DNA from: Comamonas sp.
Lineage (GTDB): Bacteria; Pseudomonadota; Gammaproteobacteria; Burkholderiales; Burkholderiaceae_C
Assembly (NCBI GenBank): GCA_015478895.1
Contig: JADMKK010000020.1
Location: forward strand, 62,001 to 126,000
Direction: 5' to 3'
DNA length: 64,000 bases
Shown here: positions 20,401-31,809 of the stretch, piece by piece
Layout of the letters: every line of letters begins with the position of its first letter
How positions within the stretch are numbered: the first letter of the stretch is position 1
The notes under the pieces: generated by a model
Told to the model about the DNA's origin: nothing
The model's database searches: none
Seen by the model: the letters and a program-made list of their open reading frames with translations, nothing else
Translations under genes and position numbers: made by a program

Positions 20401-20495
20401 TGTTCATAAACCGTCGGCACGATGTCCTTGGGCGTGCGCCTGCCTGTTGCACCTGCACATGTTGGCGACGCGCACAAGCGCATAGAATTTCGCCT

Positions 20496-20680
20496 TTGGT
20501 GCTCGCAGTGCCCCTCTTGGCGCTGCAGTTAAACGGGAAACATGGGCAGGTCTGCGCTTTATGCAGATCGCCGCGTGTACTGCCCCCGCAACAGTGTGTG
20601 CATGGGTTGTCAATGCTTGGTGCTTTGACAACCAGCCTGTCTGCTTTGCCACTGGAGTTTGCTGCTCTGGGAAGGCTATG
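20496..20680 (+). promoter_or_regulatory. cobalamin (adenosylcobalamin) riboswitch
   Basis: TTTGGTGCTC...TTAAACGGGAAACATGGGCAG...TGCCCCCGCAACAGTGTGTG...CCAGCCTGTCTGCTTTGCCACTGG; B12-element conserved blocks in order, upstream of a BtuB-like receptor. Confidence 0.88.
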
Positions 20681-20803
20681 ACAGTCGGTGCATCAGTCTG
20701 GATACCGGCCAAAAAAGGTCCGGCTTGCTGTCAGCTCTGGCTGCACAAGTTGGTGTTGAGTGAAGCACAGGCGGGGACGCTGGTGCTAACTGATCGATAT
20801 CTC

Positions 20804-25156: not shown

Positions 25157-26026
25157 ATGCTTTTAGGCCTTGCCGCTAATCGGCTGCACCACCAAACCGA
25201 AGATGCCGCCCTGTTTGATTTGCTGCGCGCCTGTGGCGCAGGCATGCGTGAGTTGCAACTGGGCCTGCACGCTGTAGGGCGTACCTATGACGCCATCGCC
25301 GCTGCAGACATGCTGCATCGCTACCCTGGCCTGGTTCGCTACCCCTATGGCCGTGAAGGTGGACTGATGAAGCTGGTGGCCGAAGTGGTCGGCATGGGCG
25401 AAGGCCGCACGCTGGATGGCGCGATTTACCTGACGGATCCGGTCGATCCGTCCTCCATCTTTCCGGAAGCGCTGGCCCTCAAGCGCCAGTGCGTCATTCA
25501 TGGCAAGCCCTTCCTGTCCACGGTGGCCAGCGCACGTGACTGGGTGGAGATGGAACGCATGCATGCAGGTTTGCCGCGTGATGCGAATGCTGACCGTTTT
25601 CACCAGTACGAAAACCACACCGTGGCGCTCATTGCCCACGATGCGATGAAGCCTGCCATGCTGGAATTTGCCAGCAAAAACTTTGAGTTGCTGTCGCGCT
25701 TTCAGCGCCGTGTGGGCACGGGCACCACGGGCCAGCGCCTCAACGAAATGGCATGGAGCAAAGGCTGGCCTGCCGACCTACCTTGGGTAGACCGCTACAA
25801 CAGTGGCCCGCTGGGGGGCGATGCGCAGATTGCCGATCTGGTGCTGGAGCGCCGCTGTCAGCGCGCTATCTTCTTTGAAGACCCGCACGTGGCACGCCAG
25901 CACGAAGCCGATATTCAACTGCTGGAACGCGCCGTGACCACAGTCACGCAAGAGGCCGTCTGCATCACCACGCCCAAGGTTGCGCAGCGCTGGTGCGATG
26001 CTGCGGTGCTGCGCCCCAGCCGCTAA
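25157..26026 (+). CDS. mgsA: methylglyoxal synthase with two MGS-like lobes
   Basis: C-terminal lobe HTVALIAHDAMKPAMLEF...GTGTTGQRLNE...NSGPLGGDAQIADLVLERRCQRAIFFEDPHVARQHEADIQLLERAV matches MgsA; N-terminal lobe GREGGLMKLVAEVV...LDGAIYLTDPVDPSSIFPEALALKRQCV is a second MGS-like unit. Confidence 0.85.
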   Translation: MLLGLAANRLHHQTEDAALFDLLRACGAGMRELQLGLHAVGRTYDAIAAADMLHRYPGLVRYPYGREGGLMKLVAEVVGMGEGRTLDGAIYLTDPVDPSSIFPEALALKRQCVIHGKPFLSTVASARDWVEMERMHAGLPRDANADRFHQYENHTVALIAHDAMKPAMLEFASKNFELLSRFQRRVGTGTTGQRLNEMAWSKGWPADLPWVDRYNSGPLGGDAQIADLVLERRCQRAIFFEDPHVARQHEADIQLLERAVTTVTQEAVCITTPKVAQRWCDAAVLRPSR

Positions 26027-26038
26027 GGGCCGTTGGGT

Positions 26039-26503
26039 TCAAACCGTCGGAGCGGCAGTCTGTTCCTGTAATGCCTGCTGCAATTGCTGGGCATAGCCCT
26101 GCAGCAGGTGCACGGCGGGCTCCTTGCGCGGCCAAGCCAGTGCCACGCCGTCGTTCTCATGGCGCGGCAGCACATGCATGTGAAAGTGAAACACGGTCTG
26201 CCCACCTGCTTCACCGTTGGCCTGGAACAGCGTGATGCCATCCGGGTCAAACGCTCGCTGTGCTGCCGCTGCAACGCGCTGCGCGGTCTGCATCACCGCA
26301 GCGGCCTCTTCGGGCGTGAGGTTAATCACCGTGACCGCATGGCGCTTGCTGGCCACCAGCACATGGCCGGGGTTGACCTGGCCGATGTCCATAAAGGCCA
26401 CGGTCAGATCGTCTTCATAGACTTTGGCGGCGGGAATGTCCCCAGCCACGATCTTGCAAAAAATGCAGTGGCCGGGCGGGGAAGTATCTACAAACATAGG
26501 CAT
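26039..26503 (-). CDS. HIT family protein
   Basis: CIFCKIVAGDIPAAKVYEDDLTVAFMDIGQVNPGHVLVASKRHAVTVINL...QTVFHFHMHVLPR (HxHxH motif). Confidence 0.93.
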   Translation of the reverse strand: MPMFVDTSPPGHCIFCKIVAGDIPAAKVYEDDLTVAFMDIGQVNPGHVLVASKRHAVTVINLTPEEAAAVMQTAQRVAAAAQRAFDPDGITLFQANGEAGGQTVFHFHMHVLPRHENDGVALAWPRKEPAVHLLQGYAQQLQQALQEQTAAPTV

Positions 26504-26525
26504 GGGTGAAGTCTCCTATTAGTTT

Positions 26526-29500
26526 TCAATTCATGGCTTGGGCTTGAGGTGCGGTAGTCGGCAAGGCTTGTGGAGTGACTGCTGGGTGCTGGATATCCAG
26601 TACCACCACCTTCACTTTGCCGGATTGGGCTGCCACGCTGCGTGTGGTGAGCATGCTTTGCATCTCTTCGGCAGTGGTTGGGACAGGTTGGCCCATGCCT
26701 AAGCTTTTCAGTTTTTTGGTGTCTTGTTGCGTTCCAAACCAAAGCACCAAATAAATCCCATGCTCATGGGCTTGCCAGTCGGTGGTGTACTGGCGCACAA
26801 GCTGTGTGTCGGCAGCAGTCCAAACTTCCCGGTGCCACTGCCCTTTAATTTCTATAGGCAAGCGCAGCGCACCCACACTGCAGGTGATATCCACTTCTTT
26901 ATCGTCAGCAACATGTGCTTCCGGGTCGTAGCGCACTTCTCGAGCACCTTGTCGCAGCAATTCAAGCAAATGGTCTCGGCAACGCTCTTCGCCATAAGGT
27001 GTGTTTTGGTCATCGTAAAAACCGCGCCAAGAATCCACGTCGCTGGCGCGAATTTTGGTTTGAACAACGCCTAGTTCTTCTAGCACCCACGCTTGCAGGT
27101 CTTCAATAGATTGGGGTGCAGCATCATTAGCAACACTCTGCACTGCATCCAAAGACGCTGGTACGTAGTTTTGTTCACAACTCTTGCGCAATTGCTGATG
27201 GCAAAGTGATTGCAGCGCCTCGGTGTAGCCGTCTTTCGGCGCATCGCGCAGTGCTTGCAAGCTAGCAATTGCGTCGGGCGTTGTTATGTTGGCTAACTGT
27301 TGCGCGATGGAGTGAAGAAATTCAGTGGCATCCCATGCGTTGTGGCTTCCGCAGGAAACCCCTGCAGGGTGTCTTGCTGCAGGCCAGAGCGCTCGAAAGC
27401 GTTGAAATACCCAAGCGCATTGCGTAGTGCTCCAGATTAGAGCCTCACCATGTTGGACGTAGCGGTGTTTTTGGCTACGTTCTTGAAGTTGCCACAGTAA
27501 GTTGGCATCGATGGCAAGGTTTTCTAATCGCGAGGATGTCGCCTCAAAATCGGTTAGTAGCCGTATGGCTTCCCAAGTCAGGTGTTTTTCATTGTCTGAA
27601 TCTGGATGGGGCCGTTGCTGTGCAATCGTACGAAGCGCATCCAGTGCACGCATGCGAATCAAGTGATCGATCAGCTGAATTTCTGTGCTTGATCGAAGGT
27701 CTGGAAACCGTTGCAGCCATTCTTGCGCAAGGGCTGTGTTGACTGCTGCACAAGCTTCTTCATGCAACAGTTCATGGAGGTTGGAAACATGTTCAACATC
27801 GGCACTCAACTGCGGTTCATAAAACCACCGCAGCCCTTTGTCTAACAGCTTTCTTTGCACCAGTTCTTGATGGATGCATGTTTTGAGAGCTTCTGTCTTG
27901 ACACCAGAGTGCTCATCAAAGCGGCCAGACTGCAAAAAGAAGAAAGCTGACAGGATGCGTTCATCGGACAGGTCTGAGGCGCTGCGACCATTTCGTAGGC
28001 GTTCTAACAGCCCTGCGATAACGATATAGCTGACTCTATATTCAGTATTTTCAACATAGCCTTGCGCAATTTCGTCCAGTGTTGGTGACGTCATTGGCTG
28101 CAGCAAGTGATTTTCAAATCCTTCGTACGCAGCAAGGGCAAGAGATTCATTGAGTACGGCGGGGAGTCGTTCCTCTGGTGGCGCTTTCTCGCTGGAGTCA
28201 CCATAAATACCACGTACGTAAATGGATGCTGGCCGCCAGCAAGCCTCCCAATCACCAGCTTTCAGCGCATCAAGGTGCTCGGTATACCAAGCAATGCTTT
28301 GCTTCTTAGCAGCAGCGTTTTCCGCTTGCCGTTGTGCCTTGCGCTTCTCTTGCTCGATTTCCCAATCCGCCTTTGGGCGAGGGGCAGTTAATTGCATGAG
28401 CCACGCTTGCTCAGATGGATTACCTGCTGCAAATTTTTGCGCTTTGTGGCGTATGGCAGCGCCTTGCTGATCATCATGCTGAGCTAAGAGCACCAGCTCT
28501 TTCCAGCGTCCGTCGTGTGCAGGTAGGGCATCTAGCAATTCGATGAGATCGGGTTCTGCGAGATTTAGAGCCGGTAAATAGTGAGCCAATTGGTACCAGT
28601 TGCTGCGCAGTGTTTCTGGGGTGCTTTGTGTAATCAGCAGAGTGTGCTGAATGGATTTTCGCAACTGAGGTGTATCGGCCAGCGCTGCATTCAGTGGATT
28701 GTTCTCATGCGTGCTGAGGTGATATCTGTCCAGAGCAGATAACCATTGCAGCACTTGTTGGGCACTAGGCGGTTGTGCTCGAACAGCTTTTGCAATGAGC
28801 GCAAAAGCCATTTCATTGACGTCGTCAAGGATGCCGTAATCATCATCTCCTTTCAGTTGAGGTATGCCAGCAGTGAAGACATCTAAAAACTGCAGAAGAT
28901 GCGATTCGGGCAACTCATTTTTGAGAAAGTAGAACTTTCCAGCCATTCGGCTATCGACGACTGCATACGCTAGGCAAATATCGGCCAGCACAGAGGCCTC
29001 AAAATTTTCAAAATCTTGGTGGTGGGCAAAGTCCAAAGCAAGGCGCAAGGCGTCTTCATTTGCCAATGCGGCGAGCTGAGCAACCAGTGTGCGACTCTCT
29101 GAAATACTGAGTTGATTGGCAAGACTACGCAATGCTGCGCTTCGAGCTGCGTAGATGTCATTGGCGTCGATAGCTATGGACGCGAGCGACTGGTGCAGCA
29201 CCTTTACCATGGCAGAGCCTTCTAAGGACTCAATAACCAACACGCGCAGCCAAATCATGGCCGGATCTTTCAGTGTTATCCAATGCGCTACATCCACTTG
29301 TAGATCGGCTTGAGCAAAACAGCGTACCTTCAACGAGTGCAGCGACCCTTGGCGTGGGTTGGCTGCAGTGGCACGCGCCAAAGTCTGCAGCAAAAGGCGT
29401 GCTTGGTAAGCTGGAAGATCGTCGGTTTCGCCATATTCGATAACGGCGATAGGGTCAAAAGCAATAACTTGCTGTGCCAAATGAGCGTCACGAGCTAACC

Positions 29501-30539
29501 ATGCATAGAGGCCACGCAAACTGGCTGGCACCATGCCAAGGTGTTGAAACAGTGCTAGAAGACGGCGGCGCTTGCGGTCGGTGTCGGCTTGCTGTGCTAG
29601 CCATTGGGCTGCCAGATATTCGCCAATGCGACGGTGCATATAGCCAAACTGATCGGCACCATGGGCCATAAAAAGTCTGGTATTGAGCGTGCTGGCAATG
29701 TCGCTTCCATTGGGCAATTGCTCTAAATCTTGAAGCAGCAACTCATCTTCTTCGAGATCTGCATGCGGCTTGCGCACAATGGACTGCTTACCGCAAAGAA
29801 GGAGGGCTGCACACGCAGCGCCTGATGCCGATACAAGCTTTGCAATAGGCAATGGCGGTTTTTTTACGCCGTTGTGTTCTTTTGCCAGCTCTTTGGTCGC
29901 CATCTTGAAAAGCTCTGCCCGTGTCTGCGGCAGCGTTGTTTTACTGGCAACCGCACAGATCAAGTCCAAAGTCTGCGGATTGCCTAGCCAATCTACTAAG
30001 CCCAATTGCTCAAAATGCGTATGCACTTCGGCTGCGCGAGGGACTCCTAAGCGGTGGCCTAGAAAGCTGAGTATTTCTGCTTTTGAGAATGGTTGAAGAT
30101 GGACTTCTAGAGGTGATTGTTCGTAGTCGCCATCTTTGATTGTGGAGGTGTAGCTACGACTGTGCCATTCGGCTACGCGGCAAGAGAGTACAAAGCGCGG
30201 GAAGCCAAGCTGCTCTAGTTTTTCCAGTACTTTGGAAATTGCGTCTCCCTCGTTTTTGGAGGCAGCCTCATCTAGCGCATCGATAACTAAGGTGCTGCCA
30301 TCTTGGTAGATCGATTTGGCATCCCTCTGCATGAGCTTTTTCGCTGTGCAGTAGCTGTAACCGGGCTGTTGCCCAAGGCGCTTCATCAACTCGGTTTTGC
30401 CCATGCCCGCTTCACCCAAAACGATGAGGGGGCGAGTTTCTTGAAGCAGATGTGCTTCGCCAAGTTCAACTTTTTCGTCTTGACTATCAGCACCTACTTT
30501 TGTGTACCAGAGCGTGCGCGGGATGTAGTTATTGTCCAT
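26526..30539 (-). CDS. large NACHT/STAND-like P-loop NTPase with C-terminal PD-(D/E)xK nuclease-like domain (1337 aa), candidate defence protein
   Basis: Walker A GEAGMGKTEL (aa 42-51), Walker B TLVIDALDEA (aa 83-92), LSCRVAEW, FGYMHRRIGEYLAAQWL (NACHT-type FxHxxxxEYLAA), long helical repeat-like middle, C-terminal EVDITCSVGALRLPIEIKGQW (D-x(n)-ExK, K1232). Confidence 0.75.
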   Translation of the reverse strand: MDNNYIPRTLWYTKVGADSQDEKVELGEAHLLQETRPLIVLGEAGMGKTELMKRLGQQPGYSYCTAKKLMQRDAKSIYQDGSTLVIDALDEAASKNEGDAISKVLEKLEQLGFPRFVLSCRVAEWHSRSYTSTIKDGDYEQSPLEVHLQPFSKAEILSFLGHRLGVPRAAEVHTHFEQLGLVDWLGNPQTLDLICAVASKTTLPQTRAELFKMATKELAKEHNGVKKPPLPIAKLVSASGAACAALLLCGKQSIVRKPHADLEEDELLLQDLEQLPNGSDIASTLNTRLFMAHGADQFGYMHRRIGEYLAAQWLAQQADTDRKRRRLLALFQHLGMVPASLRGLYAWLARDAHLAQQVIAFDPIAVIEYGETDDLPAYQARLLLQTLARATAANPRQGSLHSLKVRCFAQADLQVDVAHWITLKDPAMIWLRVLVIESLEGSAMVKVLHQSLASIAIDANDIYAARSAALRSLANQLSISESRTLVAQLAALANEDALRLALDFAHHQDFENFEASVLADICLAYAVVDSRMAGKFYFLKNELPESHLLQFLDVFTAGIPQLKGDDDYGILDDVNEMAFALIAKAVRAQPPSAQQVLQWLSALDRYHLSTHENNPLNAALADTPQLRKSIQHTLLITQSTPETLRSNWYQLAHYLPALNLAEPDLIELLDALPAHDGRWKELVLLAQHDDQQGAAIRHKAQKFAAGNPSEQAWLMQLTAPRPKADWEIEQEKRKAQRQAENAAAKKQSIAWYTEHLDALKAGDWEACWRPASIYVRGIYGDSSEKAPPEERLPAVLNESLALAAYEGFENHLLQPMTSPTLDEIAQGYVENTEYRVSYIVIAGLLERLRNGRSASDLSDERILSAFFFLQSGRFDEHSGVKTEALKTCIHQELVQRKLLDKGLRWFYEPQLSADVEHVSNLHELLHEEACAAVNTALAQEWLQRFPDLRSSTEIQLIDHLIRMRALDALRTIAQQRPHPDSDNEKHLTWEAIRLLTDFEATSSRLENLAIDANLLWQLQERSQKHRYVQHGEALIWSTTQCAWVFQRFRALWPAARHPAGVSCGSHNAWDATEFLHSIAQQLANITTPDAIASLQALRDAPKDGYTEALQSLCHQQLRKSCEQNYVPASLDAVQSVANDAAPQSIEDLQAWVLEELGVVQTKIRASDVDSWRGFYDDQNTPYGEERCRDHLLELLRQGAREVRYDPEAHVADDKEVDITCSVGALRLPIEIKGQWHREVWTAADTQLVRQYTTDWQAHEHGIYLVLWFGTQQDTKKLKSLGMGQPVPTTAEEMQSMLTTRSVAAQSGKVKVVVLDIQHPAVTPQALPTTAPQAQAMN

Positions 30540-30702
30540 TCAGCCTCTTCCTCACTGGCTGTCATTGTGGGGGAGGAACCTCTGGATTCTGGATGGGGTG
30601 AAATCAGGGTTAGTGCTTAATTTCGTCTAGAATCCGCCGCTTCGCTTTTCAGTTGCTCCGCTGACTGGCGTTTTCATATCCGGAGCCATGTAGAGGACTA
30701 CC

Positions 30703-31809
30703 ATGTATAAAAACCTCGCAGCCACGCTCGTGGCCGCCTGCGTTGTCGCCACTTCTTTCGCGCAATCCGAGACAACGCCGAAATCCCCCTCCACAGCCTC
30801 AGCAACCACCAAAGTTGGCTTTGTGTATGTCACGCCCGTTCTGCCCGCAGGATGGACGCGCCAGCATGAAGAGGGGCGGCTGGCACTGGAGCAATCCATG
30901 CCCGGCCAAGTCACCACCAAGGCGGTCGACAACGTGCCGGAAGGTCCGGACGCAGAGCGTGTGATTCGTGACCTGGCACGACAAGGCCATCAATTGATCT
31001 TCACCACCAGTTTTGGCTATATGGAGCCCACATTGCGCGTGGCTCAAGAATTCCCGAACGTGAAGTTCGAACACATCACGGGTTACAAGCAGGCGGACAA
31101 CGTGGCCACGGCCAATGCGCGCCATTACGAGGGGCGCTATCTGTCAGGTATTGCCGCAGGCCGCGTGAGCAAGACTGGCGTAGCGGGTTTTGTGGGCGGT
31201 ATGCCGATTCCTGAGGTAATCCAGGGCATTAACGCGTTTGCCTTAGGCATGCGCAGCGTCAACCCCAAGGCGCAGGTCAAGGTGGTGTGGCTGAACGCCT
31301 GGTTTGACCCACCGCGCGAGCGCGATGCCGCCATGACGCTGATGGACCAGGGCGCCGATGTGTTGTCCTTTCAGGTGGCCAGCACGGCCGTGATGGCGGC
31401 GGCGCAAGAGCGCGGCAAGATGGCCGTGGCCTTTCACTCCGACATGCGCAAAGCTGCACCAGATGCCCAGTTGCTGGCAGTGACCCACCATTGGGATCGC
31501 TATTACGCCGACCGTGTGAAGGCCGCGCAAAACGGCACATGGAAGTCTGGCGACGCCTGGGGTGGCGTCAAAGAAGGCATGGTGCGCGTAGAACACTTTG
31601 GCCCGCAATTGCCCCCAGCCGTGCGCCAGGAGTTGCTGCAGCGCCAGCAAGAGATCGCTGCAGGCCAGCTTGTGCCGTTCAAGGCCACGCATGCCGAGGT
31701 GCGCGATAACCAAGGGCAGCTGCGTATTCCGCGCAACCATCAACTGACGGATGCACAGCTGCTGCAAATGGACTGGCTGGTGGAAGGGGTAATGGGTACT
31801 ACCCAGTAA
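30703..31809 (+). CDS. BMP family ABC transporter substrate-binding protein
   Basis: KVGFVYVTPVLPAGWTRQHEEGRLALEQ...LARQGHQLIFTTSFGYMEPTLRVAQEFPNVKFEHITGYKQADNVATANARHYEGRYLSGIAAG. Confidence 0.9.
   Translation: MYKNLAATLVAACVVATSFAQSETTPKSPSTASATTKVGFVYVTPVLPAGWTRQHEEGRLALEQSMPGQVTTKAVDNVPEGPDAERVIRDLARQGHQLIFTTSFGYMEPTLRVAQEFPNVKFEHITGYKQADNVATANARHYEGRYLSGIAAGRVSKTGVAGFVGGMPIPEVIQGINAFALGMRSVNPKAQVKVVWLNAWFDPPRERDAAMTLMDQGADVLSFQVASTAVMAAAQERGKMAVAFHSDMRKAAPDAQLLAVTHHWDRYYADRVKAAQNGTWKSGDAWGGVKEGMVRVEHFGPQLPPAVRQELLQRQQEIAAGQLVPFKATHAEVRDNQGQLRIPRNHQLTDAQLLQMDWLVEGVMGTTQ

Follow-up and report, generated by a model that had tools for sequence, protein, structure and literature searches.

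The eruA locus and the identity of its product

The window, a 64,000-nucleotide stretch of a Comamonas sp. genome, carries on its minus strand a reading frame which is open from its ATG over 1337 aa and has a ribosome-binding-like GAGGAAGAGG just 5' of that ATG (Table 1). It lies between a gene for a HIT-domain protein and a divergent gene for a PnrA/BMP-type ABC substrate-binding protein, and a single copy was found in the 3.2-Mb genome. The open reading frame, motifs and coordinates given in the earlier note were all confirmed: the Walker A sequence GEAGMGKT occupies aa 42-49 (bases 30393-30416), LSCRVAEW aa 118-125, FGYMHRRIGEYLAAQWL aa 298-314 and EIK aa 1230-1232 (bases 26844-26852), and the Walker B stretch VIDALDEA was present as described.

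That note had put the protein forward as a candidate undescribed defence protein, and "undescribed" proved to be wrong. The equivalog model NF058535 of NCBIfam (release June 2026), named "NACHT domain-containing antiphage protein EruA", matched it end to end (aa 8-1316 against model positions 1-1317 of 1318) with 1238.7 bits and E = 0, the curated cut-off being 1000. By sequence the window protein is a member of the EruA family and, since this family has already been named, does not represent a new system. Other relatives ranged from 772 to 1359 bits on the same model, so the edge of the family is soft. The HyoA model NF058534, with which the protein has the NACHT-plus-helical part in common (best stretch aa 125-754), reached only 114.2 bits against a cut-off of 1200, and HyoA is a sister family of EruA to which the window protein does not belong.

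The protein does look undescribed to PADLOC and Pfam because its matches there were weak or below threshold. PADLOC 2023, which does not include EruA, returned only mad8 and PDC-S73 at 14-16 bits. In Pfam the top match of the NTPase was AAA_22, below its cut-off, and the NACHT family scored 17.6 bits against a gathering cut-off of 26.7. A search of the literature did not find the publication which introduced the names EruA and HyoA, and the antiphage label therefore rests on NCBI curation. The one paper found on a protein called EruA concerns an E. coli regulator which shares the name but is unrelated. The DefensePredictor study reports validated NACHT and PD-(D/E)XK systems, and EruA does not appear in its main text (PMC13092281).

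Table 1. Features of the eruA locus in the window, and homologue loci with an adjoining AAA_14-DUF4143 gene
Feature	Position	Strand	Basis
eruA-family gene, 1337 aa, single-gene NACHT-HEAT-PD-(D/E)xK protein	26526..30539	-	ORF; NF058535 1238.7 bits, cut-off 1000
NACHT nucleotide-binding domain, aa ~9-150	30090..30515	-	98/99 key residues; AlphaFold alpha/beta core; Foldseek NLRC4/NOD2/NLRP3
NACHT motifs: Walker A GEAGMGKT (30393-30416), Walker B VIDALDE, sensor-type Arg LSCR	within 30090..30515	-	
NACHT helical and winged-helix-like part, aa ~151-350; H302/E307 (FGYMHRRIGEYLAAQWL), LRGLYAWL	29490..30089	-	conservation
All-helical HEAT/ARM-like solenoid, aa ~351-1075, putative sensor	27315..29489	-	AlphaFold; secondary PDB matches
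Predicted PD-(D/E)xK nuclease region, aa 1075-1337	26529..27317	-	AlphaFold; Foldseek; 94-96/99 conserved
Predicted active-site residues E1184, D1217, E1230, K1232 (EIK 26844-26852), Q1246	within 26529..27317	-	
Accessory insertion between HIT and BMP-type genes	26506..30626	.	blastn of 10 relative loci
Left core neighbour, HIT-domain protein	26039..26503	-	Pfam PF01230; 22 nt downstream of eruA stop
Right core neighbour, PnrA/BMP-type ABC substrate-binding protein, divergent	30703..31809	+	Pfam PF02608
DUF4143 gene downstream of eruA homologue	L008, L031, L033, L034, L037, L042, L053, L056, L060, L062, L064, L076, L082, L087		
DUF4143 gene upstream of eruA homologue	L056, L083, L088, L091, L094-L098		

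Domain architecture and conservation

Sequence profiles searched against the PDB gave no informative match for the nuclease region and only weak generic P-loop matches for the NTPase, and a comparison of predicted folds was therefore needed. The AlphaFold model of aa 1-1080 (mean pLDDT 87.6) showed an alpha/beta NTPase leading into a body made up entirely of helices. When this model was compared with the PDB using Foldseek, NLRC4 (1.7e-7), NOD2 (2.2e-7) and NLRP3 (6e-7) were matched, all with probability 1.00, followed by SAMD9 and then by HEAT-repeat proteins (karyopherins, CAND1). Whole-chain TM-scores to NLRC4, NOD2, NLRP3 and SAMD9 were low (0.15-0.28) because the solenoids differ. The helical middle over aa ~350-1075, which the model predicts to be a solenoid, may be the sensor region.

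The C-terminal 263 residues (aa 1075-1337) were modeled with a pLDDT of 91.9 and displayed an alpha-beta-beta-beta-alpha-beta core, made up, in model numbering, of helix 110-123, strands 129-136, 140-148 and 151-159, helix 168-177 and strand 187-193. D1217 is located on strand 140-148, E1230 and K1232 on strand 151-159 and Q1246 on helix 168-177, so that the model places the D...ExK residues on adjacent strands as in restriction-endonuclease-like folds. The top Foldseek matches in the PDB were Can2, Cdn1, McrC, PspGI, SfsA, Bax1, OkrAI, NucS, Mus81 and Hjc, which are PD-(D/E)xK proteins, Can2 and Cdn1 being cyclic-oligoadenylate nucleases. Although the individual E-values were weak (best 0.008), the top list consisted mostly of PD-(D/E)xK proteins, and this consistency together with the topology and the residues argues for the assignment. 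On the model, the region is rightly described as a predicted PD-(D/E)xK nuclease with an almost invariant active site E..D..ExK..Q.

To examine conservation we aligned 99 homologues, each of at least 1150 aa, from plasmid records, a scan of a genome collection and a survey of the order. A single-protein query of the genome-contig collection returned no relatives; an alignment-based query then gave 324, of which the best 80 were used. Identity to the window protein was only 20%-40%. Despite this distance from the EruA relatives examined, G45, G47, K48, D87, D90, E91, R121 and W125 were kept in 98 of the 99, which covers the Walker A, Walker B and sensor-type Arg of NACHT/STAND NTPases. H302 and E307 were invariant (99/99), in an H...E-[FY]-x-A-A pattern which resembles the winged-helix motif of NLRs, and L341-R342-G343 was kept in at least 98. 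Within the nuclease region E1184 and D1217 were retained in 96/99, and E1230, K1232, Q1246 and G1261 in 94/99. Nearly all departures from conserved residues occurred in truncated or frameshifted frames, plus one fusion, and the R303K changes are conservative. Judged by this alignment, the NTPase and nuclease motifs are not chance occurrences. The domain order proposed in the earlier note was thus borne out in all three parts, with a NACHT/STAND-type NTPase at the extreme N-terminus (near-invariant motifs and a predicted fold matching NLRC4, NOD2 and NLRP3), a long helical middle and a C-terminal PD-(D/E)xK nuclease (fold model, Foldseek list and the conserved D-ExK-Q).

A Sphingobium plasmid protein of 1548 aa (L011:7893-12539) is EruA-type over aa 1-1129 and has a TM0106-type RecB-like nuclease with an RNase H domain in place of the usual C-terminal end. 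It is a single case and may have arisen by exchange of the effector or by a deletion that fused two genes.

Genomic setting and distribution

In relatives from the genus the HIT-domain and BMP-type genes adjoin and the site is without eruA, as determined by blastn of 10 relative loci. In one relative (L131) 106 bp separate the matched ends, compared with about 4.1 kb in the window. The insert is essentially one gene, with a GC content of ~0.51 compared with ~0.55-0.61 for most of the window. When genomes of the same genus were searched by protein, one distant partial match and no close homologue were obtained, and 10 of 399 genomes of the order passed the EruA cut-off. The single-gene character suggested earlier is upheld, and the empty site and this patchy distribution mark the gene as accessory; conservation as a core gene in all relatives, which the earlier note had said would count against its proposal, was not what was seen. 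Because the neighbours in the window are core metabolic genes, the idea that eruA lies in a defence island there was rejected.

Owing to the insertion, HIT no longer adjoins the divergent intergenic region that it formerly had and now follows eruA at a distance of 22 nt (window 26503-26526), so that it may be co-transcribed with eruA. Further along, window 25600-26007 retains 81%-87% DNA identity across the genus and in relatives is located elsewhere than at the HIT gene; a 340-aa reading frame over this stretch had no Pfam match, and a known structural RNA was dropped as a candidate since no Rfam family matched. A cobalamin riboswitch (RF00174) is located at 20480-20727, ahead of genes for a TonB-dependent receptor and a cobalamin adenosyltransferase-like protein, and the start of the receptor reading frame at 20561 overlaps the riboswitch and is probably too early.

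In a FastTree phylogeny, which has long branches, the window copy clustered, with support 98, with proteins of Marinomonas and Shewanella, copies from the same order grouped with Gallionella and Nitrosomonadaceae, which suggests a host from the GTDB Burkholderiales, and alpha-, beta- and gammaproteobacterial copies were intermixed throughout. Such a mixed tree is what horizontal transfer would be expected to produce. Many homologues are carried on conjugative plasmids and many others on genome contigs, at least some of them chromosomal, and few viral contigs carry relatives. Plasmid homologues adjoin defence genes, including SduA/Shedu (398.6 bits), AbiD, AbiEii/AbiE, a Ppl-like gene and a reverse transcriptase (RT) gene.

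At 22 of 86 homologue loci, the Paracoccus plasmid locus L008 being one example, the eruA homologue is directly adjoined on its own strand by a gene for an AAA_14-DUF4143 ATPase, a type listed by PADLOC as candidate PDC-S01. It is downstream in 14 loci, within 12 nt or slightly overlapping, and upstream in nine, one locus having both; elsewhere in the 1.72 Mb examined there was only one further AAA_14-DUF4143 gene. Its presence requires several gains or losses on the same long-branched tree. Such a partner was found neither near the window eruA nor in the whole genome, and is therefore not obligatory.

Proposed mode of action and relation to known systems

Taken together, we consider it very likely that the window protein is a horizontally acquired, single-gene EruA antiphage protein which works through a sensing solenoid, a NACHT module and a nuclease, and phage defence is its probable role. 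The HEAT-like solenoid (aa ~350-1075) would detect a phage-made molecule or a change caused by infection, either directly or by way of a host protein. Detection would allow the NACHT module to exchange ADP for ATP and to oligomerise, and the resulting clustering would activate the C-terminal PD-(D/E)xK domains. The activated nuclease would then cut DNA of the phage, the host or both, and phage replication would be stopped by restriction or by abortive infection.

The main rival is an NTP-driven restriction system of the McrBC or type IV kind, in which the nuclease itself recognises features of invading DNA such as its modification state or DNA ends. The presence of McrC and restriction enzymes among the PD-(D/E)xK matches fits such a system, as does the sub-threshold AAA_22 match of the NTPase; however, in fold the NTPase is matched best by NACHT signalling proteins (probability 1.00), no DNA-reading domain could be recognised in the window protein, and the invariant H302 with its HR-x3-E-[FY] motif fits a NACHT winged helix and not McrB. 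We regard restriction of this kind as unlikely. We rate lower still the view that EruA acts against plasmids and other mobile elements, or in competition between elements, and not against phages. Conjugative plasmids, on which so many homologues reside, are places where such genes can serve conflict between elements, but the many copies on genome contigs, some at least chromosomal, and the curated family name, which says antiphage, speak against it. That the protein is an ordinary cellular nuclease or regulator with no defence role is highly improbable, for although the window gene lies among core genes it is a lone low-GC insertion absent from relatives, with a patchy distribution, a tree in conflict with host taxonomy and homologues which elsewhere have defence neighbours.

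The antiphage reading sets the window protein beside several known systems. Avs proteins likewise combine a large STAND NTPase with a repeat sensor and an effector, but no PADLOC Avs model matched the window protein, which carries its effector at the opposite end. Animal NLRs (NLRC4, NOD2, NLRP3) and SAMD9 have the NACHT/STAND fold in common with it, whereas neither a death-fold (CARD/PYD) effector nor an LRR was identified in the window protein. The clade 6 proteins bNACHT25 and bNACHT32, the closest experimental precedent considered here, also carry NACHT and a PD-(D/E)XK DNase in one polypeptide; their N-terminal DNase degrades DNA on infection and its active site is required (PMC12169576). 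The bNACHT layout is tripartite, with an N-terminal effector, a central NACHT and a C-terminal sensor (PMC12169576). The window protein departs from this layout and is reversed, with Walker A from aa 42 and the nuclease at aa ~1184-1315, beyond the helical region.

Tentatively, EruA-like proteins could be reversed-polarity NACHT receptors with the effector at the sensor end, some of them forming two-gene systems whose activation the abutting DUF4143 ATPase sets or licenses. The one-gene form would then be represented by the window protein, which does not have the DUF4143 gene seen next to about a quarter of EruA homologues. The locus provides a clear, mobile, single-gene representative of a recently named bacterial family related to inflammasomes, at a site which is empty in relatives. 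Two possibly less familiar points are worth following, namely the reversal of the layout and the frequent presence of an abutting DUF4143 gene. Because its nuclease sits at the end opposite to that in bNACHT, EruA can be used to ask if the position of the effector matters for activation of NACHT, and should the association with DUF4143 prove functional, a role would be found for an ATPase family known to PADLOC only as a candidate.
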